Below, piece after piece: positions 1-63,932 of a stretch of DNA of 64,000 bases. A program made the translations under genes and the position numbers. The DNA is from Henricia sp. BOLD:AAB3569. Its lineage: Eukaryota > Echinodermata > Asteroidea > Spinulosida > Echinasteridae. The stretch spans positions 1,698,271-1,762,270 of the forward strand of contig JBBELK010000517.1 of NCBI GenBank assembly GCA_037783545.1, written 5' to 3'. The notes beneath the pieces were generated by a model, which saw nothing but the letters and a program-made list of their open reading frames with translations, was not told the DNA's origin and did no database searches. Positions within the stretch are counted from its first letter, which is position 1. Each line of letters begins with the position of its first letter.

Positions 1-33310
<33,310 letters not shown>

Positions 33311-38066: not shown

Positions 38067-38140
38067 TGGCAAAATAAACTAGAGCTTCGCGTTTGTGTTT
38101 TTTTACAAACGCAAGGTGATCGGGTGACATAAACATTGAA
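38067..38140. repeat. Hairpin-ended dispersed repeat (copy 1)
   Basis: AAACTAGAGCTTCGCGTTTG, then a hairpin of GCGTTTGTG / ACAAACGC, then AAGGTGATCGGGTGACAT. The same arrangement occurs at 42644-42700. Confidence 0.65.
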
Positions 38141-38582
38141 ATGATGATGACGACACAGTTTTGAGATTGTTTGAAAACTTGAGTTGTTTGATGTTGAAAA
38201 AGTATTGGAATTCTTAAGACATGACTCTGACTATTCAACGCTAAAATTGTACTACTAGGTTTTCAGGCCAACATTTATTCCTTGCCCCAAACACCCAAAC
38301 TATATATCAAATGAAAGGTCTTGATGACAGAAATACAATGCTCTTTAAATGAAGAAAATCGGACAAGTACTTTTTGAGATATCCTGTTATATGTATTAAA
38401 ATATCTATCATTCGATGAAGCCCGACCATTCATCACTGCGTATACCCCACAATGGCCCCAAAACGACATAATTTGAATGATTTTAGTAACATAAATCAGT
38501 ATAACCTCTGCTATAATTAAAGTATTCTCATAAAACTTTCTGCATAAGGGTAATGTGGTATGGTCTTTCAGAAAAAGTATAA

Positions 38583-38672
38583 ATTATTTTAATAAAATGA
38601 ATGGTTGCCATGGAAACAAGCATTTTATTTTAATAAAATTAATGGTTGCCATGGAAACAAGCACATTTTCTC
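38583..38672. repeat. Tandem duplication, about 46 bp unit, two copies
   Basis: ATGGTTGCCATGGAAACAAG preceded by TTTTAATAAAAT(G/T)A occurs twice in tandem. A 27 bp unit with GTAGAGACAACAGGATAGTT is likewise duplicated at about 38919-38971. Confidence 0.85.
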
Positions 38673-38972
38673 CAAAGAAAACAATATAATTTGACGTCTC
38701 CACAAACTTCAGATGAAATAACAGTTACTGGCAATGATATAGCTGAACAAGTGATAAATAAAGGCCAGTAACATTATTTGAGGTATTGTATTACTCATCT
38801 TCAAGGTCAAAAGTCAATTTAAAGAAGTGGAGGATGCGGATGCTAGTGTGATACTCCGAGGTGGAGGGTTTTCCTGGTTTTCTTCTGGCTCGGCCATAGT
38901 CTTTAATCTTGATACTGGAAGTAGAGACAACAGGATAGTTTATTAAGTAGAGACAACAGGATAGTTTATTAT

Positions 38973-40945
38973 ACCATGCCCTCACTTAAGATTTAGTTAA
39001 CTTTCTCCTTTTTTTTTTTTAATGACCTGACTGAAACAATTAGGGCGGCTATGAGTATGACTTTTAAAAACTTGTAAGTTGTAGGCCTATTCTCTTTAAT
39101 ACTTAAAGTTTGGTTTGTATTTATTGTTTTAATTGTATTTACAGCTGATATAGTGAACAAAATAAAACATATCAATTCGACAACCAAAAAACTTAGATCT
39201 GCCCCTCCAGGAATGCGAAAAAAACATACCTCTAGTAATAATGGTATCGCCCAAAAAAGGCATTGTGCATCCTATGTACGAACTACGATTATACCATTTT
39301 TTTTAAATATGGGGAGGGTTATACCTTCCTTTCAAAATTGAACGGACAGGAGGCCTAAAAAAATCGGCTAATTGTAATTCTGACGTCCCTAGAAATATAT
39401 CCTGCATATATGTGAGATGTGTATTTTGTTATAAAATTACCAAAACAGCATGATTTTAAGACTTAGTGGTTGACACAACCAGATTCCAACGACCGGGGTC
39501 ACGCCGTGCTTTCACGGGCGAGTGCCCCATTCAATAGGCCAACACACGCACGCACATGTAGGCGTTCGTTTCTATCAAAAGAGCTTTTGAAAGGGTATAG
39601 AAAATACGCTCTCCGTAAAAAAATAAACACATTTAACATTCCAAACTCGCACAAATAATTGTTAAGACATGTAAAATTCATTCAGTGAAACCTCCTACCT
39701 TTCAAAATGAAGATTTCACCTCAAGAAATTGAGTTTACTTTTCCCTTTTTCGTAACTTCGGTTGTAGACCACCTACCGATAACGAGGACGCAATGACGAG
39801 TACAGTATCCCTTCAGCTATTCAGGGAAACCATTTTCATGTACGTCACAAGTATTCGGATCCGCGGAAAGCACCCGAAGTGCATGCGCGCCCAGCCGAGC
39901 GGCAATTTTTATGGGCCGAATACTCGCGATCGCAACGCTTCGGGAAAAGCTGGTCGGGGCGAGAGTAGTTCATTCATAAAAGCCTGGGCTGTCGGTCATA
40001 CCTCCGACGGCTGTTTTATGTACGTTAGTGAATGACTGAAACTCTAAGCTTTCTAATGAACTGTTGCTCGTTAGATTTGGACAGGTAAAAGTGGATGATT
40101 TTTTGAGATGAAAAATAGTAAGATTTTGGTGCGGGCTGTGCGCTGTGTGTGCAGAGGGCTTCAGTCTCGTACAATTGAACTGAAAAACTGATGACGTCAT
40201 CATTGTCAATCTCATCATAACGTTACTATTGTGTGCACAGATTGTTAAAGTATCTACTGAAGAACAAGTTTTGACATGTAGGCCTAGGCCTATATGTGGT
40301 GAAAACATATTTACAATATCTATTACAGTTCTGAAGATTTTGTAATTTGAGATCATATTACTGTAGTATATCGCCGTGTGGGGAGTTGGGGTTCAATTGC
40401 ATCTAGAATAAACTGACGCTCCAGTCAACTTGAGTTGCGGTCCACCATGTTTATTTTATTTCCAACACAGCAACGATTTCCAGCATGTCATGCACATTCA
40501 CAGTTTTCGGGGAGAAGACATATTTACTCTGGTCCGCCGACTAAGGCTAGCCGTACATAATTACACCCAAGATACAACAGCTAAGTCACCAAAAGTAAAT
40601 GTCCTTGTGCTATCTAGTGTTTATTCAACTTTCCTGGCGATGATGCCACGGAAACTAGCAGTTTTACATCTTCAAAAGTCCAATTTTCTCGGTTGTAAAT
40701 CAAGCCCTGCTTATTATGTCTCGTCTGTCTGACTTATTCACTACTCGCGCACGTACGTGTATATCATTGGCCGTGTAGCCCAGACATCCACCTTTAAAAG
40801 ATACATAAATGACCTCTGACCCGAGACAGGCGCCTAGATACAAGTTCTATATTATTAGAAGTCGAGCACTATATATGGGCGCAAATCGTCAGATTAGTGG
40901 AGGCTTGGCATAGCGCCCTCAAACGACTGAGTTAGCTTAATTATC
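38973..40945. other. Intergenic, no gene seen
   Basis: The sequence contains one TGACGTCA site near 40193 and short GC-rich stretches around 39490 and 39900. No ORF in it shows a recognisable domain. Confidence 0.55.
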
Positions 40946-42643
40946 AAGGGACCCAACAAATAATTTCTCCACATTACGTAACCACTGTGCACGTGATGAC
41001 GTCATCAGTGGTATATATGTAGTCATAAAGTCCACATGTGAGGGAACATTTCGTTCCGTAGAACTATGGTCAAATTCCCTACCACTTTGGCTCTATTTGC
41101 ATTCAAAGTGCTAAAAAAGTGTACATTTTCGAACCTCTTCCGGTTTGGACCGGAGGTTTGGGTCACACAGGGGTCATGCCATTGTATGATTTGTTCAGTT
41201 CATTGCGACCTATCATGCTGTGAAAGAATTGTTCAAGTATCTATTACGATTCTTGAGATATGAATTTTTGAAATAATAACCATTTCATTTTTGTAATTTG
41301 ACACCTGTGACGATATCATGACGTCACAATGTTGTGCACAAATTGTTCAACAATTTGATAAACGTCAAGTTCTTAAATGTGGCGAAATAATCATGCAAAT
41401 ATCTGCTGTAGTTCTCAAGATACAGCATTTTTAAACAATTCAGCTCCAAATTTGCGTATTTTGACACCACATTACGTAACTACCGTCCATGTGATGACGT
41501 CACCAATGGTATAGTCAAAAAGTCCACATGTGTGGAAACATTTCGTTCCGTAGAAATATGGTCAAATTCACTACCACTTTGAATCTATTTGCATTCAAAA
41601 CGCTTTAAAAAATGCACATTTTCAAACAACTTCCGGTTTGGACCGGAAGTAGGCGTCACACAGGGGTCATGGCATCGTATGATTTGTTCAGTTCATTTAG
41701 ACTTATCATGTTGTGAAAGAATTGTTCAAGTATCTATTACGGTTCTTGAGATATGAATTTTGGAAATAATAACCTTTGAATTTTTGTAATTTGATACCTG
41801 ATGACGTCATGATTACGTCACACTTGATGCCATCATGATACTATACATTCTGGTGAAAGTCTGCCGTAGGGCCTATGTCTGTATCTAATTTACTAACGAT
41901 TCAGCTTGGTTTGATGGGCATTGTTGCTAGTAAGTGTAAAAACTGAGATTCTCAGTTTCGTTGAACTTTGACCTCCATTTGACCCAAGAAGGAAGGGTCA
42001 TATGAAAATGCCCACACAAAGAAAATTGTAGCACAGAATGTCATCTATAAACCTGCCAAATACGAAGATCCTGGGTCACGTGGTTTTCAAGACGGAAGCA
42101 TTTTAAAATATGCATATTTTGGTTTTTTTGGGGGTGTAATTTGATACTTGATGACGTCACGATGACGTCACGCTTGATGCCATTATAATATTATACACGC
42201 TGGTGAAAGTCTGCCATAGGACCTATGCCTGTACTTAGTTTGTTAAAGATTCAGCTTGGTTTGATGGGCATTGTTGCTCAATAAGTGCAAAAATTGAGAT
42301 TTTCGTTTTCGTTGAACTTTGACCTCAAATTGACCCCAGAAGGAAGGGTCAGATGAAAATGCCCACACGAAGAAAATTGTTGGCCATGATCTGATATATA
42401 AGCCTGCCAAATACGAAGATCATGAGTCACGTGGTTTTCCAGACGGAAGCATTTTAAAACATGCATATTTTGGTCATTTTTTTGTTGTAATTTGATACCC
42501 GATGACGTCACGGTGACGTCACACTTGTATGCACACCTTCACATTGGGGTTGATGTTCCTACCAAGTTTCAAGTTGATAGCTTGAACCGTTTCGAAGAAA
42601 AGCTCTGGAAACGTTTGAGTGGAAAAAGAAGAAAAAAAAAAAA

Positions 42644-42700
42644 CTAGAGGTATGACGTTTGTTGTTACAAACGCCAGGTGATCGGGCTAAATGAACATTT
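42644..42700. repeat. Hairpin-ended dispersed repeat (copy 2)
   Basis: AAACTAGAGGTATGACGTTTG, hairpin GACGTTTGT / ACAAACGC, then CAGGTGATCGGGCTAAAT, matching 38067-38140. Confidence 0.65.
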
Positions 42701-45179: not shown

Positions 45180-45970
45180 GAGGCTGTATGGAAATGCCAA
45201 GTGTCAAACTGCTGAAATCTGGGAAAGTTTCACAACAAATATTGTCCGAAGCACATCAGACCAGACCACTTTCACATACCGGTACATCATTGCAGTCTTG
45301 AGAGTCTAGTGTTTTATAAAATAACGGTAAAGCTTATCGAATTGTCAATTTGGCTATCTACGGTGTCTTGAAACATTGATTGGACAAAATTCGGACAATG
45401 TTCTGACCTGCATGCCCTGTGTGCCACCATTTTAGCTAATATAGGCCTACTGGACGATGGTCATGATGGTGGCGCTTCTCGATCATGAGAAGTGAAGGAG
45501 CGCGGCTGTGCAATATGCATAATTCATATTGATGTTGCATGTGTTTATCCAACCTGGCAAGTACATCATGTGCGCAGTGCAGTTATGGCCAATTTTGTGA
45601 TGTACTTGCCAGCTGGGATAAACACATGCGACATTAATATGAATTATGCATATTGCACAGCTAGCCGGGCTCCTTGACGTCTCATGATCGAGTTAGAAGT
45701 GCCATTATCGTCCAGCATATCAGCTAAAATGGCGGCGCACAGGGCATGCAGGTCAGAATGTTGTCTGAATTTTGTCGAATATTTCAAGATGCCGTAGATG
45801 GCCAAATTGATGATTCCGTAAGCTTTACTGTTATTTTCTGAAATAGTAGACTCTCAGAATTGCAATGATGTATGTGAAAGTGGTCTGGTCTGATGTGCTT
45901 CAGACGATATTTGTAGTGAAACTTTCTCGGATTTCGGCAGTTAGACACTTAGCATTTCTGTACAGCCTCA
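45180..45970. repeat. Large palindrome, about 390 bp arms, 29 bp spacer
   Basis: The left arm (45180-45568) is mirrored by the right arm (45598-45970). Matching pairs from outside in are GAGGCTGTATGGAAATGCC / GCATTTCTGTACAGCCTC, GACCAGACCACTTTCACATA / TATGTGAAAGTGGTCTGGTC, CAGGTCAGAA-type, ATATGCATAATTCATATTGA and its complement, and CTGGCAAGTACATCA / TGATGTACTTGCCAG. No coding sequence is evident. Confidence 0.9.
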
Positions 45971-47588: not shown

Positions 47589-48266
47589 GCTATGAGTGGA
47601 CAATTTATGTAAAAGTGTCATTTGGACGTGCTTTCGTTTGTCACAGTTGAGTACTGGAGATATGATAAACAATTAAAGATTCCAGCTGGGTGATAAAATA
47701 GAGTGATTAGTATGTACTTTAAGAAGAAATACAATGTAGGCATTCACCAATTTAGACAAAAGATGTAAAGAAGCTAATCTACAGATAGAGGAAATCAGAC
47801 CTTTTTAAAAACATGTTCACTTACCGGTATCAAGAAATCTTCATTTGTTAAAGGTTATACATTTCTCTGTTTGTTTGTGGCACGAGATACAATGTTGGTA
47901 TTATTAAATGAATACTATTTCTAGAAGTTTAAAATGATATAAAATTTATATCTGTTGGTACTTCAATTGTGGAATTATGGATGTCCAAATATAGCAGGTC
48001 ATGCTAATTAGTTAAGTTTGTTCTATGGTAAGTGAACAAATAATTGACCAAATGACAATTTTCGTTCTAGGGGTTTGTCAAAGAGTTCAATCACCACACC
48101 AAATTTCATTTCAATCTGTGACATTCAGGCCTGGCAGTGTGTCAAAATAACATGGAATGAATCTTGTGTATGATATAACAGCTGAAATGCATTTGTTTGT
48201 AGAAATTTGAAATGGCACTTTTGGCTTAAAATTTGCATTTGTATTTGATTGTATTTTAGAAATCTG
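47589..48266 (+). other. Presumed 5' non-coding region of the Helentron
   Basis: AT-rich sequence with no gene. The in-frame stop before the large ORF is at 48246-48248. TTGATTGTATTTTAG at 48245-48259 resembles a 3' splice site, so the ORF may be joined to an upstream leader exon. The element's 5' terminus could not be placed. Confidence 0.4.
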
Positions 48267-51200
48267 ATGCCAAATATGATTGCGACTGTTGCTGTTGAAG
48301 GAGGGAGAGTTGAAGGTGGAGGTCAGCGTGACAATGGAACTACATTCTGTACTTGTGTGAAGAAGGCTACTAATCAGGAACATGGAGAAACTTGTGTACA
48401 GTCTATACTTGGAGATAACACTGAACATGGGGAAACCCTTGAACAGTCTATACTTGGAGATAACACTGAACATGGGGAAACCTGTGAACAGTCTATACTT
48501 GGAGATAACACTGAACATGGGGAAACCTGTGAACAGTCTATACTTGGAGATAACACTGAACATGGGGAAACCTGTGAACAGTCTATACTTGGAGATAACA
48601 CTGAACATGGGGAAACCTGTGAACAGTCTATACTTGGAGATAACACTGAACATGGGGAAACCTGTGAACAGTCTGTACTTGGAGATAACACTGAACATGG
48701 GGAAACCTGTGAACAGTCTATACTTGGAGATAACACTGAACATGGGGAAACCTGTGAACAGTCTATACTTGGAGATAACACTGAACATGGGGAAACCCTT
48801 GAACAGTCTATACTTGGAGATAACACTGAACATGGGGAAACCTGTGAACAGTCTATACTTGGAGATAACACTGAACATGGGGAAACCTGTGAACAGTCTA
48901 TACTTGGAGATAACACTGAACATGGGGAAACCTGTGAACAGTCTATACTTGGAGATAACACTGAACATGGGGAAACCTGTGAACAGTCTATACTTGGAGA
49001 TAACACTGAACATGGGGAAACCTGTGAACAGTCTATACTTGGAGATAACACTGAACATGGGGAAACCCGTGAACAGTCTATACTTGGAGATAACACTGAA
49101 CATGGGGAAACCCTTGAACAGTCTATACTTGGAGATAACACTGAACATGGGGAAACCCGTGAACAGTCTATACTTGGAGATAACACTGAACATGGGGAAA
49201 CCTGTGAACAGTCTATACTTGGAGATAACACTGAACATGGGGAAACCTGTGAACAGTCTATACTTGGAGATAACACTGAACATGGGGAAACCTGTGAACA
49301 GTCTATACTTGGAGATAACACTGAACATGTTGAAACCTGTGAACAGTCTGTACTTGGAGATAACATTGAACATGGGGAAACCTGTGAACAGTCTATACTT
49401 GGAGATAACACTGAACATGGGGAAACCTGTGAACAGTCTGTACTTGGAGATAACAGTGAACATGGGGAAACCTGTGAACAGTCTGTACTTGGAGATAACA
49501 CTGAACATGGGGAAACCTGTGAACAGTCTGTACTTGGAGATAACACTGAACATGGGGAAACTTGTGAACAGTCCATACTTGGAGATAACAGTGAACAAAG
49601 GATAAAGGCTAAACACATGGATATAACTGAGATTAGTAATCTTGGAGAAAAACCAGAAAAGATAATTGCAGAAGATAGGAAAGGCAAGTGTACAGACGAT
49701 ATGCAAAACATTAAGATAGATTTGAGGAATAACATAAGCAGAAGCAAAGTTGAAATAAATCACAGAGTGATGCAGCTTAATGACATTGAAGTAAGACTAC
49801 AGTGTTTGGAGTGTGAATTGAAAGATAGACAGAAAAACTTGTATGAAAGAGACAGAAGGCTACAGTGTAAGCAAAGGAAACGAAAGTCATACAACAGGAG
49901 GAAAGAACGTAAACTTAAGAGCAGGTACATGGACATGTGTTTTGAAAGTAAAGAAGCAGGTTCAACACAGTATGAGAAGCAACGGAAACAAATTTACTCT
50001 GGTACTAAAAGAAGTTTGAGTAAAGTACTTAAGCATGTGGACTTAAACAATGGGAAGAAAAGGAGTAAGAAAAACTGTGGACAAATAAGTTGGGGAAAAA
50101 AGAAAGAGATAGAAATAAATGCTAAAGAAAAAAAATTGCTTGAAAAAGAGAAAAACCTGGACATACTGAAAAGTAAATTGAATGACTTTGAAGTTGATTT
50201 GATGATACGAGAACAGAAAGGGACTGTAAGTAAAGAACATTGCAGAAACAAGGCATCACCATACAAGTACGTGGGTTGTCAAGGAAAAAGCAAGAGAAAT
50301 GGGAAGTCTGTGGGTTGTCAAGGAAAACTCAAGAGAAATGAGAAAGTTGGTGTAGTGAGAAGAGACAAAAAGTGCAAAATATCAAAACCTGGAAAGGACA
50401 AAACAGTTGTGACATACAACAGAAAGAGAAACGGTCGTATTATACAGGAACAAGTGAGCAAGGAAGATAAAAAGATTCATGAAAAAGCACAGAAATACAT
50501 CTGTCACCGCACTAAAAGAATTTTGAGTAAACTTGTAAAGAAACTAAAGGGAGGTAAGAAACAAACATTAAAGGGTGTCAGTGTCCCCAAGAAATGTGGA
50601 GGTGGAAAGCCCAAGATGAAGTGTAAACAAAATGAATCTAAATTGGAGGACACCAACATTGAACAGTTTGATAATGTGTGTTGGCTTTGTGAGAATACTG
50701 ACGGACATGAAACGGGTAGAAGGCAAATAAGATGTAACAAGTGTCTTGTGGTATTTCATTTATCATGCACAAAGTTCATGAAGATGGAGCCATATTTGAT
50801 TGATAAGAGAGTGTCGTGGGTTTGTTGTAACTGCGGACAATCTAACTACAGTGACAGTTTGTTTTATGACATTGGTATTCCTACAGATAAAAATCTATAT
50901 GAATGGACAAGACAGGATACAGTACAAGAATGTTCCAGTGCAGTTGAAGAACAACTGAAAGTCTTTGACAAGGTGAGAGAGGTTTTCAAGAAATCGCAGA
51001 AGCATGAACGTTGTACAGAATGTAGCAATGCATTGTACCACCAGAAACAAACTGGTGGTTATTTTTTGAGGAAAAGAAAATCGACTACGGTAGTTGATGC
51101 AGCTAAATCAAACAGAATATCTAAAAAGACAAAAAGAGCAAGCAAACTTGAAACAAAGAGTAATGATTCAAATGCTAGTGAGAGCATTAGTAAACAACAA

Positions 51201-54200
51201 AGACAAACAGTGAAGAGAAAAGAGAGTACTGATATGGAAGCTGATAAACAACTGTCCGAAAAGGTAAAGAAAAGGTCAGCAGTTACTAAAAAGAGGAAGG
51301 TGGAAGTAGAAGAGAAGAACATACATGTAGACATTGATACTGATCAGCAAGCAGAAAAAAATGAGGCAAATTCAAGTAATACATGTGGAATGCAACATCG
51401 ATCATGCCAAAGCACTGATAAAATGGACTCAAAAATGCATACTAGCAAAGATATGTACATGAGTACACCATGCTCAGCTGTGGAATACGTTATTATACAG
51501 GGAAATTATCACCAGGGTCATGCAAAGTTTGGTTTGAATAGCGGAAAGCAATGTGTTGCTAATAGTTTGTGTTCAATGATGTACAGTCAAGTAAAGGATT
51601 TGAAAAGGTGGACATGCCATGATATGGATTTGGTACTGAATACTGGTGATGAGTTGTATGGCCATTTGTCACAAAGTTCTACTATGCATAATGATTTTTT
51701 GTTAATCAATGAATTGCCAAATGAACTGTGTGTGTTCAATCATCATTTTAGTATGATTTATCATGAGTCCGTCTGTGGTACTTTTGGAATGAACTTAAGT
51801 TTATTGGAATTTAATATGATAACATTGAATGATGCACTTGAGCAAACACTACAACAATACAATGCCTGCTTTATATGTTTCAAAGGAAATACATTTGCTG
51901 CTATTGCTCAAAGTGGTATGTATTATATATTTGATTCCCATTCCAGAGATCATAACGGTTGCCAAGTAAGTGAAGGCAGGAGCTTGATAAAAAGTGCAGC
52001 AACCTTGCAAGATGTATACAGGTATTGTACTGATTTGGGTAGATCAATGAATGTAACTGACAATGATCAGTTTGAAATTACAGGTGTTATGATGGGAAAA
52101 ATAAATGAGAAAAGAGAAGGTGAAGTGAATGTACATGACAATAAGGAAAACCAAAGAAGCAAACAAGATAGAGATGTTAAAAATCAAAAAGTTAAGGATT
52201 TTACAGATAATAATGTGTCAATAAATACTGGGGATGTTGAATGTGTAAATGAAGGTAGTGATATTGAAATGATGGAAGTACCTGAAATGACTAGTTTTAA
52301 GTTTGTTCCATTAAGACATGAACATAAGTTTGCATTAAGTAAAAAAGTTGGAATTGCTCACATTACTTCAAAAGTCGATGAAATACCTCGGCAGTGTAAC
52401 CATATGGGTCAGCCAGCTTGTACAAAGAACATCAGAGGTGATGGAAATTGTTTTTTCAGAGCTGTTTCTTATGCTATATCTGGATCTGAACGGAATCATA
52501 TGAGACTACGATTGGCTGCTGTAAATCACCTTTTGAAGTATGAGGACCAATACAAGTCTTTCTTGCCTGAAGGATTCAGTAATGTTGAAGAGTATGTTTT
52601 AAAGAGGAAAGTTATGTGTTCTGGTGTCTGGGCAACAGAGATTGAAATTATGTCATTGGCACATTTTTTGGGAACAGACATATATACATACAGCAATAGA
52701 TGGTTGATATTTTCAGGAAAAGTGAGTGAAGTGGGTACTGTAACATCTGATGCAGGAATTTACCTGATGCATACGGAGCAGATACATTATGATGTGGTGT
52801 TATCAGTTAATGAGTTAATTAGTAATAACTGCAATGCTTTGATTGAACCAATCCTGGACAATGGTGGGTGCTCCAAAGAAAATAATTCCCATAAAGCAGG
52901 GCAAGAGAGTGTGAGTGATATTGGTGCATGTAACAGTTACAATGTGAAGTCGGATGTACGAAGTGTAATTAGAGACATTGCAGTTGGAAAAGGGGTAATT
53001 AAAAAGAGAAAGTGTCGTCACAATTTGCGTTCAAAGAGAAATATTGACAGAGAAAGAAAAAAACAGAAAAATCAACATGAAGCAAATGTGTCAAATTTGT
53101 CGGGATGCGTTGATGAGGATGATGTGAAGAGCACTGCAAAGAAATTATATGATAAACTTAATTATCATGGAAATCCTGTTTTAAAAAAACAGAAAAGTGA
53201 CAGTGTCATGATTAAATATCATACAAATGTTGATTACAAAACTAAACAAATTATGACACAGAAAGATAAATATCATAAAGATGCAAATTACAAGAGCAAA
53301 AAAATTCAGACCTTAAAAGATAAATATCATGGAGATGCAAATTACAAGATTAAAAAAATCCAAACTGTAAAAGCTAAATATCATGGAGATGCAAAATACA
53401 AAAGACAGGTAATTGAAACACAAAAAGGAAAGTATCATGGAAATGTAAATTACAAAAGACAGGTAATTGAAACACAAAAAGGAAAGTATCATGGAGATGT
53501 AAATTACAAAAGACATGTAATTGAAACACAAAAAGGAAAGTATCATGGAGATGTAAATTACAAAAGACACGTAATTGAAAGACAAAAAGGAAAGTATCAT
53601 GGAGATGTAAATTACAAAAGACACGTAATTGAAAGACAAAAAGGAAAGTATCATGGAGATGTAAATTACAAAAGACACGTAATTGAAAGACAAAAAGGAA
53701 AGTATCATGGAGATGTAAATTACAAAAGAAAGGTAATTCAGGCACAGAAGGGAAAGTATCATGGGAATACATATTACAGAAAGAAGTTAATCCAGGCAAT
53801 AACATTGATAAATAAAAATAAATACAATACAGATGACAACTACAGAAAGGATAAAGTTAAAATGTCAAAAGAAAGACAATTGAAAGTAAAGGCTATGAAA
53901 ACTCACGTACAAAATGTAATTGAGAATTTTAAGAAGAAAACAGAAAGTGGTCCAGACTGTATTTGTGCTGTGTGTCAGAGATTGCTCTTTCAAAGTCAGG
54001 TAAAAAAATGTAGTAAAGATAAATACAAATACTTTCAATATATTTGTGATCAGTATTTACATGAATGTAACGAAGATTGTAATATGCCATGTGCTTTGGC
54101 TACATCAAACAGAGGAACATTGTGGATTTGCTATACATGTCATAGAAAACTAATTGCTAACAGAGTACCAGCAGAAGCATGTATGAATACTCTAAGTTTG

Positions 54201-57200
54201 ATAGACATTCCAGAAGAGTTGCAGAGACTGAATAGTTTAGAACAACATTTAATTGCAAGGAATATCGCATTCATGAAAATTGTAAATCGTCCAAAGGGTG
54301 GTCAAAAAGGAATTTATGGACCTTGTGTTTGTGTACCATCAAATACCATGGAGACAGTACAAAGACTACCTAGATGTGCAAATGAGAATGACATGATACG
54401 GATCAAACTGAAACGAAAACTGTCATACAAAGGTTACCATGAGTATCAATATGTGAATAGATGGCATGTAGAACAAGCTTTGTTTTATTTAAAAACTAAT
54501 AATAAATGGTATCATGATATTGAAATAGAAGAAGATTGGGCAAATCATGTACCAGAATGTTTGAATGATGAAGAGGAAGAGGTTGAAAATAACATTGAAG
54601 TAAACAATGAAGAAGATACAAGCATTAAAACTGAGGATGAAAGTGATGTTGAGGATGATGATGAGGACCGATTGCGTGGGGTACAACTTGACACTTGTCT
54701 GCAACCAGTAAATATAGGGCAAGAAGTTCTTGATCAGTATTTTGATGAAATATTCTGTGTTGCTCCGTGTGAAGGTAATAATCCTGTAAGATTATTAATG
54801 GAAGAAGGGAATGAGGCAAAGTGTTTTCCAATATTATTTCCAACTGGAACACCAATATTTAAGGACAAACGGAATGTCAGGATAACACTCAGTAGATATT
54901 TACATAATCGATTGATGAATGCTGATCACAGATTTGCTCAAAATACAGACTACATATTTTATGCTCAATATTTGTCAGAAATACAACAAGTCATGTCTAG
55001 TGTCTCTATTGCTTTGCGCAAAGGAACTGCTAAAACTCGGGAAGGGAAGAGTATAACATCAGCAATGCTTAACAATAAAGAAAAACTCAGAGATATGCTG
55101 AAATCTGACAAAGGATATAAGTTTTTGAAGCCTATAAGAGGCACACCACCATACTGGCAATGTGCTCATAGAGATGTGTTAGCAATGATTACACAACTTG
55201 GACTTCCCACATGGTTCTGTTCATTCTCCTCTGCTGATATGAGATGGTCTGAAGTAATTGGTACAATAATGAAACAACAGGGAGACATTAGAAATTTTGA
55301 TGAATTGGACTGGAATGACAAATGTATGTTACTGAGGAGCAATCCTGTTACAGCAGCTCGAATGTTTGATAAGAGATTTCATGTGTTTTTGAAGGAAGTG
55401 ATAATGTCAGAAGCTCAACCAATTGGCAAAGTGAAAGATTATTTTTATCGAGTTGAATTCCAACAAAGAGGGTCACCACACACGCATTGTTTATTTTGGA
55501 TTGAAGATGCTCCTAAACTGGACACCGATTCTGATGAAGACGTCATTGCCTTTATAGACAGATATATCTCCTGTAATTTACCTTCTAAAGATGAGGATGA
55601 AGAATTACATGAAATTATCAATAATGTACAGGTACATAGTAAAAAACATTCAAAAAGTTGTAAAAAGAAGGGTACTGAATGTAGGTTTAACTTTCCGAGA
55701 CCACCATCTGAGAGAACCTTTATAATCAGACGTGTTGAACCAACTACTGCCGAGACAAATGATTTTAGTGCTGATGATAGTGACATTGATAGCATGAGTC
55801 AGATATCAGATTTGGATGAACTTTATAATGATGTTATTAGTAAAGCTCAAGCAGAGGAATTATTAAAGAGTATTTGGAATGAGGTACAAAATCAAGAGAA
55901 ACAGTATACGTCTACTGAAGAACTGTTCACTGCTGCCGGGATCACTCAAAAAGAATTTGAAAAGGCTAATGAGCTATTGACTAAAAAACTTAGCATTGTG
56001 TTGAAGCGTAATCCCCAAGATGTCTGGGTAAATCAATACAATTCTCACTTGATACGAGCATGGAATGCAAATTTAGATATTCAGTACATAACGGACATTT
56101 TTGGATGCGTGGCATATGTTGCATCGTACATGTCAAAAGCAGAACGTGAGATGGGAATGCTGTTGAGTAATGTTTCTAGTGAAGCACAGAAAGGAAATCT
56201 TGATGCAAAGCAAAGCATGAAGGAAGTTGGCTATGCATATTTGCAGAATCGTGAAGTGTCGGCTCAAGAGGCAGTGTATCGTGTGTGTAACTTAAGGTTA
56301 AAGGAATGCTCAAGAAAAGTAGAATTTATACCCGTTGGAGAAAATCCAGTAAGAATGAGCTTACCTCTAAAGTTAATTCAAAATAAGTCAGAAGCTGATG
56401 ATGAAGACATCTGGCTCCACAGTAAGATTGATAGATATAAAGCAAGGCCACAGTCGCATGATTTTGATGAAATGTGTCTGGCTTCATTTTGTTCAAATTA
56501 CAGAATTTTATATAGTACAGAAGCACTAAAAGCTCAAAAAGGAAAAGTTAATTCCAATATTCATGAATTACAGAATGGTTTAGGATATATACGAAAACGT
56601 ACTCGGACTCGATATGCAGTGATTAAATATCCCAGATTTTCCATTTCAAAGATTTCAGAGAAATACTATCAAAGCATCTTGCAGCTTTTCTTGCCTTATC
56701 GTATTGATGCACAATTAAAACCTTTGCACTTTGAAACGTTTGAAGAATTCTATAACATTGCAAGTGTCAAACTTCATGAGTGTGATGATCGTACACAACG
56801 TGTAAGCTTAATTGTGGATACTAATCGTCAAAAATTTGAAGCTAACATAGAATCTATGGAAGATGTTGAACAGTACTTGCACAAGTTTGGACCACAGGAG
56901 GATGCATGGGCTTTAATTTCACCAGAGGTTGAATCAGAGAGAATTGAATGTGAAAATGAAAGAGGTCCAGTAAATGAAGCCAGTGAGGATGAGTATGATA
57001 TTCCTGACCTAAAATGTAATGATAAAGAGAAGGCAGGACAAGGTATTGAATACCGTTCACGCAGAATAACTGTGAATGAAGCTTCGTGTTTAATGCGAAT
57101 GTTAAATGCCAAACAAAAAGAAGTTTTCTACAAGATCAGAAAGTGGTGTTTAGATAAAGTGAATGGTAAAAAGCCAGAACCTTTCCACGTATTTGTAACA

Positions 57201-59171
57201 GGAGGAGCAGGCACAGGCAAGAGTCATTTGATTAAGTGTATTTACAGTGAAGCTGTGCGAATACTTGGACGATCAACCCATAATCCAGATGATGTCACAG
57301 TGTTACTAACTGCTCCCACTGGTGTTGCTGCACACAATATTAATGGTTTAACCCTGCATAGTGCTTTGTCAATTGGAATCAACATATCACTGCCTTATCA
57401 ACCACTTGGTGATGAGAAAATGAGTACCTTGCGTAATGAATTAGGTCAGTTACAAATTCTAATCGTAGATGAAATTTCAATGGTTGATCAAAAGATGCTG
57501 TGTTACATACATGGGCGACTTCGACAAATCAAACAAACAAGATTTCAAGATCCTTTTGGTAAAGTGAGTGTGATTGCAGTTGGCGATTTTTATCAATTGC
57601 CTCCTGTAAAAGGAAAATCGTTACATCATAACACTGTTGAATCAGGATTGTGGCATGATAATTTCCAAAAAGTAGAACTGACGGAAATCATGAGACAAAA
57701 AGATCAGAAATTTACATTAGTTCTAAATGAATTGCGGGTGAAAGTGAAGAAAGATAATTTAAATGATGAGACTATTGCAATTTTGCAAAGTCGTGAAACT
57801 GGGGAAGACTGTTTTGATGCTATTCATATTTATCCAACAAATAAACAGGTTGACAACCACAATGTCCAAGTTTTACATAAGACATGTGAAAACTGCATTT
57901 GTATAGAAGCAAAAGATTTTGAGAAAGATGGCAGTGGACGATTGAAGCTAAAAGAAAAACCCCTAAAATCAAATCGTGGCAGTCTTTGCAGATCATTGTG
58001 GCTTGCTATTGGTGCAAGAGTTATGTTGACAAAAAATATTGATGTGTCAGATGGATTAGTAAATGGTGCATTTGGCACTGTTACTCATATTGAAATGTTG
58101 CCTGATCAATTGGACGCTGAATATATCAAAGTAAGATTTGATAATGAAAATGTAGGCTCAAAACTTAAGAGACAGGTAGTGCCACTAAATGATACTGATT
58201 CTGTTTTAATTAAGATGGAAGAAGAATCAATTGGAAAGAAATGCACAAGGAGACAATTTCCCCTGAAACTTGCATGGGCATGTACAGTACATAAAGTACA
58301 AGGTATGACAGTGAATAAAGCAGTAGTGTGTCTGAATCGTACATTTGCAGCAGGTCAAGCATATGTTGGTTTAAGTCGTGTGACATCATTAAATGGACTT
58401 GTCATTGAGGGGTTTGATCCTAAATATGTGTATTGTGATAGATCAGTTACTGAAGCTTTGGATATCATGCCTGCATTTGTTACCAGTAATTTGCAGCAAA
58501 ATATAACAGATACAACTAATACATGTACTGTAGTAACCCTTCATAATGTACAAGGCTTAAGAGCACACTTTTTAGACATGGAATCCCAATGCGAAATAAT
58601 GCAGTCTGATTTCATTTGCCTAACAGAGACATGGGTTGAATCTGAACAAGTAAGTCAGTTCCACATGGAAAATTTCAAGTGCTATCATCAAGTAAGAGGC
58701 ATGTCATATAATGGGTCGATGAAACATTTGCAGGAACAGAGTCATGGTGGTGTTGCGGTGTATGGCAAGAAAAGCAGATCTTTTAGTAGATTGAATATAC
58801 CAGTACAGAATGTTGAGTATATTGCATTTCATGTAATTTCTAACACATCAATTGTAATTGTTGTTATTTATCGACCATCATCATATGGCATTCAGGATTT
58901 TGTTAACAGTTTGATCAAGTTGGTTAGTGAAATAAATAAGATCAGCAACAGATGCATTGTCATGGGTGATTTCAATGACAATATTCTTGATAGGGAATCG
59001 TCAATTGAAAAAGCAATGAAAGAGCAAGGATATACGCAGTGTGTAAAAGAGGCAACTACAGAGAATGGAACACTAATAGATCACATTTATGTACGGGGTT
59101 TGACTGATGTTGAAACATCTGTAATACCTACATATTATAGTTACCATGAAAGTGTTAAAATTTGTTTCTAA
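48267..59171 (+). CDS. Helentron (HLE2 Helitron) Rep-helicase polyprotein with PHD, C76-like and OTU protease domains and EEP endonuclease
   Basis: One open frame of 3634 codons from the first ATG after the upstream stop. Domains by residue: 38-442, twenty-seven 15-residue repeats; about 495-675, basic coiled region; 805-856, PHD finger (C805, C808, C823, C826, H831, C834, C853, C856); 1074-1255, herpes-tegument-like C76-type cysteine protease (C1096, D1223, H1225); 1387-1510, OTU protease (D1392, C1395, H1507); 1650-1847, eleven 18-residue repeats; about 1898-2090, DUF6570-like Cys-rich domain; 2187-2640, Helitron Rep with HTH metal motif (H2405, H2407) and tyrosines Y2617 and Y2621; 2946-3400, PIF1 helicase (GGAGTGKS 2979-2986, DE 3068-3069, arginine finger R3371); 3420-3634, EEP endonuclease (N3427, E3454, D3568, N3570, D3605, H3606, H3627). 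The C-terminal EEP marks the Helentron branch. Rep nicks and joins single strands and the helicase unwinds; protease roles are unknown. Known Helentrons combine Rep, PIF1, EEP and sometimes OTU; the other assignments are by motif only. Confidence 0.93.
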   Translation: MPNMIATVAVEGGRVEGGGQRDNGTTFCTCVKKATNQEHGETCVQSILGDNTEHGETLEQSILGDNTEHGETCEQSILGDNTEHGETCEQSILGDNTEHGETCEQSILGDNTEHGETCEQSILGDNTEHGETCEQSVLGDNTEHGETCEQSILGDNTEHGETCEQSILGDNTEHGETLEQSILGDNTEHGETCEQSILGDNTEHGETCEQSILGDNTEHGETCEQSILGDNTEHGETCEQSILGDNTEHGETCEQSILGDNTEHGETREQSILGDNTEHGETLEQSILGDNTEHGETREQSILGDNTEHGETCEQSILGDNTEHGETCEQSILGDNTEHGETCEQSILGDNTEHVETCEQSVLGDNIEHGETCEQSILGDNTEHGETCEQSVLGDNSEHGETCEQSVLGDNTEHGETCEQSVLGDNTEHGETCEQSILGDNSEQRIKAKHMDITEISNLGEKPEKIIAEDRKGKCTDDMQNIKIDLRNNISRSKVEINHRVMQLNDIEVRLQCLECELKDRQKNLYERDRRLQCKQRKRKSYNRRKERKLKSRYMDMCFESKEAGSTQYEKQRKQIYSGTKRSLSKVLKHVDLNNGKKRSKKNCGQISWGKKKEIEINAKEKKLLEKEKNLDILKSKLNDFEVDLMIREQKGTVSKEHCRNKASPYKYVGCQGKSKRNGKSVGCQGKLKRNEKVGVVRRDKKCKISKPGKDKTVVTYNRKRNGRIIQEQVSKEDKKIHEKAQKYICHRTKRILSKLVKKLKGGKKQTLKGVSVPKKCGGGKPKMKCKQNESKLEDTNIEQFDNVCWLCENTDGHETGRRQIRCNKCLVVFHLSCTKFMKMEPYLIDKRVSWVCCNCGQSNYSDSLFYDIGIPTDKNLYEWTRQDTVQECSSAVEEQLKVFDKVREVFKKSQKHERCTECSNALYHQKQTGGYFLRKRKSTTVVDAAKSNRISKKTKRASKLETKSNDSNASESISKQQRQTVKRKESTDMEADKQLSEKVKKRSAVTKKRKVEVEEKNIHVDIDTDQQAEKNEANSSNTCGMQHRSCQSTDKMDSKMHTSKDMYMSTPCSAVEYVIIQGNYHQGHAKFGLNSGKQCVANSLCSMMYSQVKDLKRWTCHDMDLVLNTGDELYGHLSQSSTMHNDFLLINELPNELCVFNHHFSMIYHESVCGTFGMNLSLLEFNMITLNDALEQTLQQYNACFICFKGNTFAAIAQSGMYYIFDSHSRDHNGCQVSEGRSLIKSAATLQDVYRYCTDLGRSMNVTDNDQFEITGVMMGKINEKREGEVNVHDNKENQRSKQDRDVKNQKVKDFTDNNVSINTGDVECVNEGSDIEMMEVPEMTSFKFVPLRHEHKFALSKKVGIAHITSKVDEIPRQCNHMGQPACTKNIRGDGNCFFRAVSYAISGSERNHMRLRLAAVNHLLKYEDQYKSFLPEGFSNVEEYVLKRKVMCSGVWATEIEIMSLAHFLGTDIYTYSNRWLIFSGKVSEVGTVTSDAGIYLMHTEQIHYDVVLSVNELISNNCNALIEPILDNGGCSKENNSHKAGQESVSDIGACNSYNVKSDVRSVIRDIAVGKGVIKKRKCRHNLRSKRNIDRERKKQKNQHEANVSNLSGCVDEDDVKSTAKKLYDKLNYHGNPVLKKQKSDSVMIKYHTNVDYKTKQIMTQKDKYHKDANYKSKKIQTLKDKYHGDANYKIKKIQTVKAKYHGDAKYKRQVIETQKGKYHGNVNYKRQVIETQKGKYHGDVNYKRHVIETQKGKYHGDVNYKRHVIERQKGKYHGDVNYKRHVIERQKGKYHGDVNYKRHVIERQKGKYHGDVNYKRKVIQAQKGKYHGNTYYRKKLIQAITLINKNKYNTDDNYRKDKVKMSKERQLKVKAMKTHVQNVIENFKKKTESGPDCICAVCQRLLFQSQVKKCSKDKYKYFQYICDQYLHECNEDCNMPCALATSNRGTLWICYTCHRKLIANRVPAEACMNTLSLIDIPEELQRLNSLEQHLIARNIAFMKIVNRPKGGQKGIYGPCVCVPSNTMETVQRLPRCANENDMIRIKLKRKLSYKGYHEYQYVNRWHVEQALFYLKTNNKWYHDIEIEEDWANHVPECLNDEEEEVENNIEVNNEEDTSIKTEDESDVEDDDEDRLRGVQLDTCLQPVNIGQEVLDQYFDEIFCVAPCEGNNPVRLLMEEGNEAKCFPILFPTGTPIFKDKRNVRITLSRYLHNRLMNADHRFAQNTDYIFYAQYLSEIQQVMSSVSIALRKGTAKTREGKSITSAMLNNKEKLRDMLKSDKGYKFLKPIRGTPPYWQCAHRDVLAMITQLGLPTWFCSFSSADMRWSEVIGTIMKQQGDIRNFDELDWNDKCMLLRSNPVTAARMFDKRFHVFLKEVIMSEAQPIGKVKDYFYRVEFQQRGSPHTHCLFWIEDAPKLDTDSDEDVIAFIDRYISCNLPSKDEDEELHEIINNVQVHSKKHSKSCKKKGTECRFNFPRPPSERTFIIRRVEPTTAETNDFSADDSDIDSMSQISDLDELYNDVISKAQAEELLKSIWNEVQNQEKQYTSTEELFTAAGITQKEFEKANELLTKKLSIVLKRNPQDVWVNQYNSHLIRAWNANLDIQYITDIFGCVAYVASYMSKAEREMGMLLSNVSSEAQKGNLDAKQSMKEVGYAYLQNREVSAQEAVYRVCNLRLKECSRKVEFIPVGENPVRMSLPLKLIQNKSEADDEDIWLHSKIDRYKARPQSHDFDEMCLASFCSNYRILYSTEALKAQKGKVNSNIHELQNGLGYIRKRTRTRYAVIKYPRFSISKISEKYYQSILQLFLPYRIDAQLKPLHFETFEEFYNIASVKLHECDDRTQRVSLIVDTNRQKFEANIESMEDVEQYLHKFGPQEDAWALISPEVESERIECENERGPVNEASEDEYDIPDLKCNDKEKAGQGIEYRSRRITVNEASCLMRMLNAKQKEVFYKIRKWCLDKVNGKKPEPFHVFVTGGAGTGKSHLIKCIYSEAVRILGRSTHNPDDVTVLLTAPTGVAAHNINGLTLHSALSIGINISLPYQPLGDEKMSTLRNELGQLQILIVDEISMVDQKMLCYIHGRLRQIKQTRFQDPFGKVSVIAVGDFYQLPPVKGKSLHHNTVESGLWHDNFQKVELTEIMRQKDQKFTLVLNELRVKVKKDNLNDETIAILQSRETGEDCFDAIHIYPTNKQVDNHNVQVLHKTCENCICIEAKDFEKDGSGRLKLKEKPLKSNRGSLCRSLWLAIGARVMLTKNIDVSDGLVNGAFGTVTHIEMLPDQLDAEYIKVRFDNENVGSKLKRQVVPLNDTDSVLIKMEEESIGKKCTRRQFPLKLAWACTVHKVQGMTVNKAVVCLNRTFAAGQAYVGLSRVTSLNGLVIEGFDPKYVYCDRSVTEALDIMPAFVTSNLQQNITDTTNTCTVVTLHNVQGLRAHFLDMESQCEIMQSDFICLTETWVESEQVSQFHMENFKCYHQVRGMSYNGSMKHLQEQSHGGVAVYGKKSRSFSRLNIPVQNVEYIAFHVISNTSIVIVVIYRPSSYGIQDFVNSLIKLVSEINKISNRCIVMGDFNDNILDRESSIEKAMKEQGYTQCVKEATTENGTLIDHIYVRGLTDVETSVIPTYYSYHESVKICF
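48378..49592 (+). repeat. Minisatellite: 27 copies of a 45 bp unit inside the Helentron ORF
   Basis: Exactly 27 units (1215 bp) encode the consensus EHGETCEQSILGDNT. Variants are confined mainly to residue 6 (C, L or R), residue 10 (I or V) and the last residue (T, S or I). Because 45 is divisible by 3 and the unit lacks stops in several frames, frame +2 (48382-49605, MGKPVNSLYLEITLN per unit) and two minus-strand frames are also open across the array. Near identity of units implies recent amplification or gene conversion. Confidence 0.97.
50679..50834 (+). other. PHD-finger domain within the Helentron protein
   Basis: C..C at 805/808, C..C at 823/826, H831, C834, then W851 and C853 (or C854) and C856 give the C4HC3 zinc pattern, with the conserved Trp two residues before the last Cys pair. 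PHD fingers commonly read histone H3 tails; binding here is inferred. Confidence 0.8.
51486..52036 (+). other. C76/herpes-tegument-like cysteine protease domain within the Helentron protein
   Basis: GKQCVANSLCSMMYS carries the putative nucleophile C1096. DMDLVLNTGDELYGHL, NELPNEL and YYIFDSHSRDHNG (D1223, H1225) follow in the order and spacing of the deubiquitinase fold first described in herpesvirus large tegument proteins and found in other mobile elements. Assignment rests on motif order, not on an alignment. Confidence 0.7.
52425..52800 (+). other. OTU cysteine protease domain within the Helentron protein
   Basis: IRGDGNCFFRAVSYAISGS (D1392, C1395) and EQIHYDVVLS (H1507) are the classic OTU catalytic motifs, separated by a normal distance of about 112 residues. 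The triad looks intact, implying deubiquitinase activity. Confidence 0.93.
53214..53807 (+). repeat. Eleven copies of a 54 bp unit coding an 18-residue basic repeat
   Basis: The consensus is KYHGDVNYKRHVIERQKG. The central copies (53430-53730) are nearly identical at DNA level, while the outer copies diverge (KYHTNVDYKTKQIMTQKD first, KYHGNTYYRKKLIQAITL last). Two minus-strand frames are also open here. Similar KY..N..YR..V repeats occur next to Helitron-type proteins in other animals; a DNA-binding role is plausible but unproven. Confidence 0.95.
54822..56185 (+). other. Helitron Rep (HUH, two-tyrosine) domain within the Helentron protein
   Basis: FPILFPTG opens the Helitron_like_N region, followed by PTWFCSFSSADMRW. 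The metal-binding motif is QQRGSPHTHCLFWI (H2405, H2407) and the catalytic tyrosine motif is CVAYVASYMSKAE, with Y2617 and Y2621 four residues apart as in active Helitrons. Confidence 0.93.
57102..58470 (+). other. PIF1-family superfamily 1B helicase domain within the Helentron protein
   Basis: LNAKQKEVF (Q motif region), FVTGGAGTGKSHLI (Walker A), LIVDEISMVDQKM (Walker B), GDFYQLPPVKG (motif III), TVHKVQGMT (motif V) and AYVGLSRV (motif VI) occur in order. Confidence 0.96.
58520..59171 (+). other. Endonuclease/exonuclease/phosphatase (EEP) domain ending the Helentron protein
   Basis: LHNVQGL (N3427), LTETW (E3454), VIYRPSS, MGDFND (D3568, N3570), LIDHIYV (D3605, H3606) and YSYHE (H3627) are the motifs of AP-like endonucleases of non-LTR type. 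The last catalytic His lies only seven residues before the stop, so the domain is just complete. Confidence 0.92.
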
Positions 59172-59904: not shown

Positions 59905-61810
59905 TGAGCTCATGCCATTTCATCTCCAGCTTGTATTGACTGGAGATTGTCTTTAGTACCTGCCATGGACTACATTATTCACTCCAGCTTGTATTGGCTG
60001 GGGATTGTCTTAATTTCCTGCAATGGACAAAGCCAATCATCTGAGCTCTTGCCATTTCATCTCCAGCTTATATTGGCTGGGGATTGTCTTCACTACCTGC
60101 CATGGACTACACCATTCAACCGAGCTCACGCCATTTCATCTCCAGCTTGTATTGGCTGGGGATTGTCTTCAGTACCTGCCTTGGCCTACACCATTCAATC
60201 GAGCTCACGCCATTTCATCTCCAGCTTGTATTGGCTGGGGATTGTCTTCAGTACCTGCCATGGCCTACACCATTCAACCGAGCTCATGCCATTTCATCTT
60301 CAGCTTATATTGGCTGGGGATTGTCTTCACTACCTGCCATGGACTACACCATTCAACTGAGCTCACGCCATTTCATCTCCAGCTTGTATTGGCTGGGGAT
60401 TGTCTTCAGTACCTGCCATGGCCTACACCATTCAACCGAGCTTACGCCATTTCATCTCCAGCTTGTATTGGCTGGGGATTGTCTTCAGTACCTGCCATGG
60501 CCTACACCATTCAACCGAGCTCATGCCATTTCATCTTCAGCTTATATTGGCTGGGGATTGTCTTCACTACCTGCCATGGACTACACCATTCAACTGAGCT
60601 CACGCCATTTCATCTCCAGCTTGTATTGGCTGGGGATTGTCTTCAGTACCTGCCATGGCCTACACCATTCAACCGAGCTTACGCCATTTCATCTCCAGCT
60701 TGTATTGGCTGGGGATTGTCTTCAGTACCTGCCATGGCCTACACCATTCAACCGAGCTCATGCCATTTCATCTTCAGCTTATATTGGCTGGGGATTGTCT
60801 TCACTACCTGCCATGGACTACACCATTCAACTGAGCTCACGCCATTTCATCTCCAGCTTGTATTGGCTGGGGATTGTCTTCAGTACCTGCCATGGCCTAC
60901 ACCATTCAACCGAGCTCACGCCATTTCATCTCCAGCTTGTATTGGCTGGGGATTGTGTTCAATAACTGCCATGGACTACACCATTCAACCGAGCTCACGC
61001 CATTTCATCTTCAGCTTGTATTGGCTGGGGATTGTCTTCAGTACCTGCCATGGACTATGCCATTCATCTGAGCTCATGTCATTTTATCTCCAGCTTGTAT
61101 TGGCTGGGGATTGTCTTCAGTACCTGCCATGGACTATGCCATTCATCTGAGCTCATGTCATTTTATCTCCAGCTTGTATTGGCTGGGGATTGTCTTCAGT
61201 ACCTGCCATGGACTATGCTTTTCATCCGAGCTCATGTCATTTTATCTCCAGCTAGTATTGGCTGGGGATAGTCTTCAGTACCTGCCATGGACTATGCTTT
61301 TCATCTGAGCTCATGTCATTTCATCTCCAGCTAGTATTGGCTGGGGATAGTCTTCAGTACCTGCCATGGACTATGCCATTCATCCGAGCTCATGTCATTT
61401 CATCTCCAGCTTGTATTGGCTGGGGATTGTCTTCAGTACCTGCCATGGACTATGCCATTCATCTGAGCTGATGCCATTTCATCTCCAGCTTGTATTGGCT
61501 GGGGATGGTCTTCAGTACGTGCCATGGACTATGTCATTCATCTGAGCTCATGTCATTTTATCTCCAGCTTGTATTGACTGGGGATTGTCTTCAGTACCTG
61601 CCATGGACTATGCTTTTCATCTGACCTCATGTCATTTCATCTCCAGCTTGTATTAGCTCGAGATTTTCTTCATCAATACCTGCCATGGACTATATGCCAT
61701 TCATCTGAGTTCATGCCATTTTATCTCCAGCTTGTATTGGCTGGGGATTGTCTTCAGTACATGCCATGGACTACAATATGCCATTCACTACGTTTTGACT
61801 GGTATTTATC
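59905..61810. repeat. 79 bp tandem repeat, about 24 copies, with a 237 bp higher-order period
   Basis: The unit contains CACGCCATTTCATCTCCAGC, TTGTATTGGCTGGGGATTG, TCTTCAGTACCTGCCATGG and CCTACACCATTCAACCGAGC. Between about 60110 and 60970 three-unit blocks repeat every 237 bp: the TCTTCAGCTTATATTGGC variant recurs at about 60298, 60535 and 60772. The last copies (after about 61630) degrade and change length. Open frames across it, up to 375 codons, follow from the repeat. It lies 0.7 kb after the Helentron stop and is probably part of that element. Confidence 0.95.
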
Positions 61811-63674: not shown

Positions 63675-63932
63675 AGGGTCATTCTATGAATTTGGGGTCC
63701 AACGTGTGACATTTTTCTGTCCCCGTTACACCTGACATACTGCTATTTGCATACAAGTATCATTAAAAATGCCTTCAAACCATATTTTTATGAATTGTAT
63801 TTTATGTAATCACTCTTTCAAATAGAAGGCATTTAAAGAATATGTCCTGAATTTACAAAAGACAACATTTTACAAGGTGTCAGATGTAACGGGGACAGAA
63901 AAAGTGGACCCCAAATTTATGGAATGACCCAT
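63675..63932. repeat. 258 bp MITE with GGGTCATTCTATGAATTTGG ends
   Basis: GGGTCATTCTATGAATTTGG then GGTCCA on the left; TGGACCCCAAATTTATGGAA then TGACCC on the right. CTGTCCCCGTTACA / TGTAACGGGGACAG lie inward. The ends are imperfect long inverted repeats. Confidence 0.87.

Follow-up and report, generated by a model that had tools for sequence, protein, structure and literature searches.

The locus considered here raises the question of what is encoded by a single very long open reading frame in which a Rep, a helicase and an endonuclease are joined to domains otherwise associated with ubiquitin and with histones, and whether this frame belongs to a mobile element or to its host. It lies in a stretch of 64,000 nucleotides of the genome of Henricia sp. 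BOLD:AAB3569 (hereinafter, the window). Helentrons form a large class of transposons in animals, and little is understood of their extra domains. The reading favoured here, to which a probability of about 0.88 is assigned, is that the frame encodes the transposase of a large autonomous Helentron with recent activity, equipped with VTD and OTU domains that would remove ubiquitin and with a putative histone-docking PHD finger carried as a replaceable N-terminal cassette.

The frame is unbroken from the ATG at 48267 to the stop codon ending at 59171 and encodes 3,634 amino acids, in agreement with the intact frame reported in the preliminary description; an earlier start (TTG at 48249) is mechanically possible. 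Its layout in the window is the following:

48267-59171, + strand: transposase ORF, 3,634 codons (reading of the frame)
48378-49597, + strand: 45-bp array, 27 copies (45 bp x 27.1), encoding 15-residue repeats
50679-50834, + strand: PHD finger, residues 805-856, C4HC3 ligands (excised-segment and profile matches)
51510-51956, + strand: VTD (Herpes_teg_N, C76-like) domain, residues 1082-1230 (Pfam and triad)
52434-52697, + strand: OTU domain, residues 1390-1477 by Pfam; H1507, the third triad residue, lies outside the match
within 53213-53784, + strand: 54-bp array encoding basic 18-residue repeats
54159-54539, + strand: DUF6570, residues 1965-2091 (Pfam)
54903-56132, + strand: HUH Rep, residues 2213-2622 (Pfam match 2213-2409; H2405, H2407, Y2617, Y2621)
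57099-58448, + strand: PIF1 helicase, residues 2945-3394 (Pfam, and phmmer against the PDB)
58545-59168, + strand: EEP endonuclease, residues 3427-3634 (Pfam match 3427-3619; motifs)

All six domains previously attributed to this ORF (PHD, C76-like, OTU, Rep, PIF1 and EEP) were recovered, together with DUF6570, which had not been listed. When the whole protein was compared with Pfam, matches over the cut-off were obtained for Helitron_like_N (E-value 2.9e-32), PIF1 (1.2e-29), DUF6570 (3.8e-20), OTU (PF02338, 2.2e-10), Herpes_teg_N (5.7e-9), EEP (PF03372, 8e-9) and the PIF1 2B domain, and the excised VTD part matched Herpes_teg_N (PF04843) at 3.5e-11. A Bactofilin match at residues 1692-1772 falls in the 54-bp array and is probably spurious. 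The phmmer comparison of the protein with the PDB retrieved PIF1 helicases (2.1e-43), the helicase part of Helraiser, and OTU proteins. The HUH Rep and the PIF1 helicase are thus joined in one protein, which also carries the EEP/AP-type endonuclease at its C-terminus; both features are among those by which Helentrons are recognised.

The catalytic residues formerly assigned to Rep, helicase, EEP and OTU are in place; the motifs HTH (2405-2407), YVASYMSK (2617), GGAGTGKS (2979), VDEISM (3067), QAYVGLSR (3364) and GDFND (3567) were found in the expected positions. The VTD triad consists of C1096 and D1223-x-H1225, and that of OTU of D1392, C1395 and H1507. In an alignment of 39 hand-selected rows of relatives, the catalytic motifs are conserved in nearly all the rows covering the respective region: the helicase arginine R3371 and the EEP residues N3427, E3454, D3568, N3570 and D3605 occur in 39/39 of these selected rows, and the last EEP histidine in 38/39. 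The last EEP motif reads SYH and not SDH; since tyrosine is the commonest residue at that site in the relatives (among the 39 selected rows, 22 have Y and 9 have D), SYH can be regarded as a feature of the family and not as a defect.

The PHD finger required a separate analysis. It is absent from the whole-protein Pfam scan at E-values up to 1, and the excised segment matches PF00628 at 0.001 (19.5 bits, the curated cut-off being 24) and PDB chains at 0.0077 and weaker. A profile built on three sequences, i.e., the window protein and two Antedon proteins, matches PDB chains at 7.4e-6; high-ranking ones among them (MTF2, KAT6A, WSTF, DPF3 and Pygopus) are PHD proteins. PF00628 in turn matches 3/3 members of this alignment, the best at 1.9e-5 and the window member under the cut-off. 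In the three aligned sequences, all eight zinc ligands and the tryptophan preceding the last cysteine pair are invariant, and the similarity between the window and Antedon segments extends into a common flanking extension. The single-sequence structure prediction of the domain did not give a confident fold (pLDDT 35.3). When residues 790-900 served as the query of a homology search, not one of 17 candidates received a score at E-values up to 10. Hence, the C76-like domain and the PHD finger, for which an HMM search had been proposed, are both supported, the latter only after excision and profile construction. The domain would be a zinc finger of the histone-reader type, with putative binding to the H3 tail.

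The distribution of the domain among the relatives was then considered. A motif regular expression found it in 2/139 relatives, both of them Antedon proteins (P0039 and P0041), and the profile, itself derived from the window protein and these same two rows, adds P0034 and P0035, for a total of 4/139 retrieved relatives; additional partial PHD-like segments are present in P0034 and P0035. Gene models cut at the N-terminus may be partly responsible for its absence from the other relatives. Judged from its sequence, the PHD finger is genuine, uncommon and not confined to the element of the window.

The search with residues 1900-3634 retrieved 387 proteins, the best 120 of which are led by sequences of Strongylocentrotus, Diadema, Lytechinus, Myxine, Antedon and Haliotis; over these residues, the Strongylocentrotus protein P0006 shares 55% identity with the window protein. 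The tree, which comprises 34 rows, groups the window protein with 10 rows including sea urchin and crinoid sequences (support 100/100), among which P0006, P0034, P0035 and the two Antedon proteins; in the midpoint-rooted tree it is the sister of the other ten rows of this clade. All five PHD-containing rows (the window protein, P0034, P0035, P0039 and P0041) fall inside this 11-row, echinoderm-dominated clade, and their position requires at least three gains or losses of the domain. Read by itself, the tree points to an echinoderm as the probable host, with the reserve that transposons move between species.

A search with residues 800-1530 retrieved 28 proteins, 28/28 of which carry both OTU and Herpes_teg_N, the seed region being biased toward both domains. 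The comparison of the VTD part with phage records (tblastn) gave no match at 0.01. The association of the two domains is already known: in Erven et al. (2022, PMC9741609), VTD domains are reported in Helentron-type Helitrons, 121 of which also possess OTU. In the zebrafish element DrT2 and others described there, the Helentron transposase likewise contains a single VTD and a single OTU domain, and the VTD triad is Cys / Asp-x-His. According to the same study, zebrafish Helitron VTDs react with ubiquitin and cleave it, and the domain is suggested to shield transposition proteins from the proteasome; these VTDs have been assayed, whereas that of the window is known from its sequence. The long N-terminal array of 15-residue repeats distinguishes the window protein from the Helentrons presented in that study. 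A tandem period of 10-40 residues was detected in 102/140 proteins (that of the window counted), the best period being 18 residues in 81/102. The architecture had been called unusually elaborate: this does not hold for the combination of VTD and OTU, which is published (PMC9741609), nor for the 18-residue repeats, which are common, and it does hold for the PHD finger (4/139). A literature search, incomplete in its coverage, disclosed no report of a PHD finger in Helitrons or Helentrons at the level of the titles and abstract openings listed; the terms "PHD", "plant homeodomain" and "zinc finger" are absent from the main text of PMC9741609, and the word PHD from that of PMC4067079.

A single intact frame might also represent a domesticated host gene and not a transposon, and the purifying selection acting on the sequence (see below) would agree with this idea. 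It is nevertheless highly improbable, given the dozens of dispersed near-identical copies with common termini and differing flanks. With a 3-kb query on the Rep region (genome of 740.7 Mb in 2,104 contigs, 40 of 110 candidates scored), at least 39 full-length matches, that of the window included, and one partial match were found at 96-100% identity; two further copies score equal to that of the window. Among the best loci that were fetched, 20/20 (the window's own included; 17 distinct) are open over the last 1,956-1,957 codons up to the stop. Pairwise dN/dS values among the copies are mostly 0.2-0.6, near-identical pairs aside. The numerous near-identical open copies and these ratios suggest recent activity under purifying selection, as the preliminary description had proposed from the intactness of the frame, and the ORF is neither an assembly artefact nor a lone old copy. 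Identical copies were found on separate contigs (C741 and C1763; C303 and C1542), and identical or near-identical contigs may be haplotype or assembly duplicates, in which case the copy number is overcounted. The idea that C1542 and the window are one locus was discarded, since the left flank of C1542 is different. On a genome-wide scale, the element family is abundant: the CTAGAG-type start pattern is matched 2,284 times and the exact terminal hairpin 1,344 times, with one and zero matches, respectively, for the reversed-pattern controls.

The comparison of the copies over the segment from PHD to VTD revealed two types of N-terminus. Of the 85 candidates for this query, 40 were scored, and 41 rows resulted. 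Thirty of them, that of the window among them, cover the full length at 96-100%, two are partial, eight are restricted to the VTD part, and one is a small fragment. In the 8 VTD-only rows, the VTD part is 93-94% identical, and each of them lies about 3 kb from a 96% Rep match. The other copies of the window's lineage were compared in this segment as DNA, and the only other frame read there is that of one of the eight, on contig C921, which is also the one copy of the sister lineage read in sequence. It contains an open stretch of 706 residues leading from a basic region through a PHD finger into the VTD. The amino-acid identity with the window is 97.3% in the VTD part, 34.8% in the PHD part and 35.3% in the linker. 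At a fixed offset, the matches per 30 bases step from 7-15 upstream to 24-30 downstream of a border at about 51498, upstream of which blastn finds no similarity between C921 and the window. The PHD finger of C921 is recognised at 1.2e-15 (single-protein search, with a profile that includes the PHD of the window); the spacing of its second ligand pair is C-x-C, and the zinc-finger pattern is retained.

Two explanations can be considered for this border. It is probable that the N-terminal cassette has been exchanged between co-resident lineages and that the PHD finger has been retained by selection. Alternatively, no exchange occurred and the PHD region evolved very fast, for example under conflict with chromatin factors of the host, with Rep and VTD staying nearly fixed; the persistence of the PHD pattern at 34.8% identity is what would be expected for a domain selected for its function and not for its exact sequence. 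This second possibility is unlikely, in that a gradual change would not produce the abrupt step observed at about 51498, where no gradient is seen.

The bounds of the element, which the preliminary description does not give, were read from the copies, and the element turned out to be about twice as long as its ORF. The features of the window outside the ORF are the following:

38079-42643, + strand: non-autonomous relative (HINE), joined head-to-tail with the Helentron through an A-run
42644-64000, + strand: Helentron copy, truncated by the contig end at 64000; its start is common to C54 and C1542, which have other left flanks
42656-42673, + strand: terminal stem CGTTTGT / ACAAACG, set in from the CTAG end by about 12 nt (direct reading)
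42676-42687, + strand: subterminal inverted repeat AGGTGATCGGGC (12-mer)
45180-45969, no strand assigned: internal long inverted repeat preceding the ORF, about 80% alike throughout
59978-61775, + strand: 79-bp minisatellite inside the element
63677-63929, no strand assigned: 253-bp inverted-repeat (MITE-like) insertion with a CATAAG duplication, absent from the C162 copy

The element starts at 42644 with CTAGAGGTATG..., followed by the stem and by the 12-mer. Many of the genome matches break at the insertion at 63677-63929, and the ORFs listed in the minisatellite are probably due to chance. The window ends with its contig (C517) at 64000, and other copies stay similar past that point; beyond the position equivalent to 64000, the fetched copies run into a region resembling 41253-42643 of the window. 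At the three array ends that were read fully (C607, C54 and C1542), hairpins of the form AGGTGATCGGGC-TGTTG-GCCCGATCACCT were found, whose arms are the subterminal repeat and its complement. The copy on C607 has a length of about 24.4 kb, taken from its start through the last of the three terminal hairpins stacked there. The HINE shares the CTAGAG terminus with the Helentron, and the same subterminal repeat with a single mismatch, and its last 1.4 kb or so resembles the distal end of the Helentron copies (94.8% to C607). In the downstream part of the copies (loci L029-L042), insertions and deletions vary from copy to copy. Past the equivalent of 64000, locus L032 contains a tRNA-like stretch, GGATTCGAACCCGGG, perhaps a SINE. 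The sole Rfam match in the window is to a tRNA (25238-25310, minus strand, 50 bits).

The subterminal inverted repeats and the palindrome near the end agree with those of Helentrons (about 11-15 bp). At 3/3 arrays with both ends read, the element is flanked by AA on either side in A/T-rich DNA; these flanks correspond to TT on the opposite strand and, therefore, to the T-T insertion of Helentrons, and AA on both sides is indistinguishable from a 2-bp duplication. A clean empty site was not found: once joined, the two C607 flanks proved similar to a dispersed repeat from its AT-rich tail onwards and not in the left flank, 40/40 scored rows beginning at positions 91-99 of 220. On the opposite strand the order runs from TT through the palindromic subterminal repeat, the body, the subterminal repeat, the stem and CTAG to TT, which fits the description of Helentrons and HINEs in PMC4067079 with the ORF reversed, the choice of orientation being inferred. 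With the family presented there, the element has in common the subterminal inverted repeats, the terminal palindrome, the T-T type insertion and the non-autonomous partners containing internal repeats; it differs, under that inferred orientation, in the reversal of its ORF relative to the usual one and in the Helitron-like CTAG end. A reversed ORF is reported in that paper for one Drosophila family, Helentron-Da-40. The identification of the ORF as a Helentron is thus supported by its domains, its copies and its terminal structures.

The organization of the arrays raises a further question. The junctions between units lie in A-runs and are devoid of hairpins, and the hairpins are stacked at the end of the array (C607, C54 and others). 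This might suggest nested self-insertion, in which a resident element receives a new one in the A-run immediately internal to its terminal hairpin, leaving the hairpins stacked. Multiple stacked termini are also known in the fungal FoHeli elements of Fusarium, for which self-insertion together with ORF reversal is proposed in PMC5148889; those elements are of the Helitron2 type, and their sequences differ from that of the window. The prediction of equal numbers of starts and hairpins had been fixed before the arrays were fetched, and it held in 2/7 of them (C607, 3/3; C54, 4/4). In the other 5/7 the numbers are unequal (C1542, 2/3; C1, 8/3; C9, 6/5; C7, 3/2; C6, 3/2, or 3/1 with the main hairpin type only); the ORF regions inside C607, C54 and C1542 were read in part only. 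With exact matches on contigs C1-C10, 27/45 stacks are equal, 24 of these being 1/1, and 18/45 are unequal; these counts omit starts with no exact hairpin nearby. It was also predicted that the last start and the first hairpin should agree in repeat type, which proved wrong at both (2/2) places tested. As equal counts held in 2/7 arrays only and the repeat type failed, self-insertion is kept as a rival only, with a chance falling somewhat short of even. The stacks at L056 and L059 also include hairpins of other sequence (GGCTGTTCCG... and GGCTTTTTCG...), at variance with the subterminal repeats of the starts closest to them; these off-type hairpins are perhaps other subfamilies or internal terminators.

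The arrays might otherwise derive from rolling-circle read-through past the terminator, which is suggested for Helitron clusters in PMC4067079, or from unequal crossing-over between similar units. Several starts on C1 are exactly 1,347 bp apart, resembling the tandem duplication of one unit, and starts outnumber hairpins in 4/7 arrays. Simple read-through, however, is expected to leave a hairpin at every internal junction, whereas none was seen at the junctions, the hairpins being stacked at one end. An origin by read-through or by unequal crossing-over is conceivable but less than probable. It is also possible that self-insertion was followed by gain and loss of units through unequal recombination.

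Returning to the Helentron reading, a mechanism can be outlined from what is known of related families. The Rep tyrosines would cut and join one strand at the element ends, PIF1 would unwind the cut strand, and EEP would nick the A/T-rich target; VTD and OTU might strip ubiquitin, either protecting the transposase or opposing host silencing, and the PHD finger might dock the complex onto histone H3 tails. The N-terminal module would most simply be swapped by recombination or by template switching between copies. A wider proposal, to be taken as doubtful, is that in echinoderm Helentrons the PHD cassette is swapped between lineages and aims the transposase at histone marks, retargeting it while the core is kept, with arrays growing through the elements' own A-runs. 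The PHD finger and its apparent swap between co-resident lineages look new; most of the remaining design is known.

With many intact copies in a young family, and with two putative deubiquitinases and a preserved PHD finger combined in a single protein, the roles of accessory domains become testable; the stacked hairpins allow self-insertion and read-through to be tested against each other, on sequence grounds, as sources of Helitron arrays. The module border provides a natural comparison between two N-termini mounted on nearly the same engine; if the cassette swap is true, the element would change its chromatin target while its catalytic core remains unchanged.
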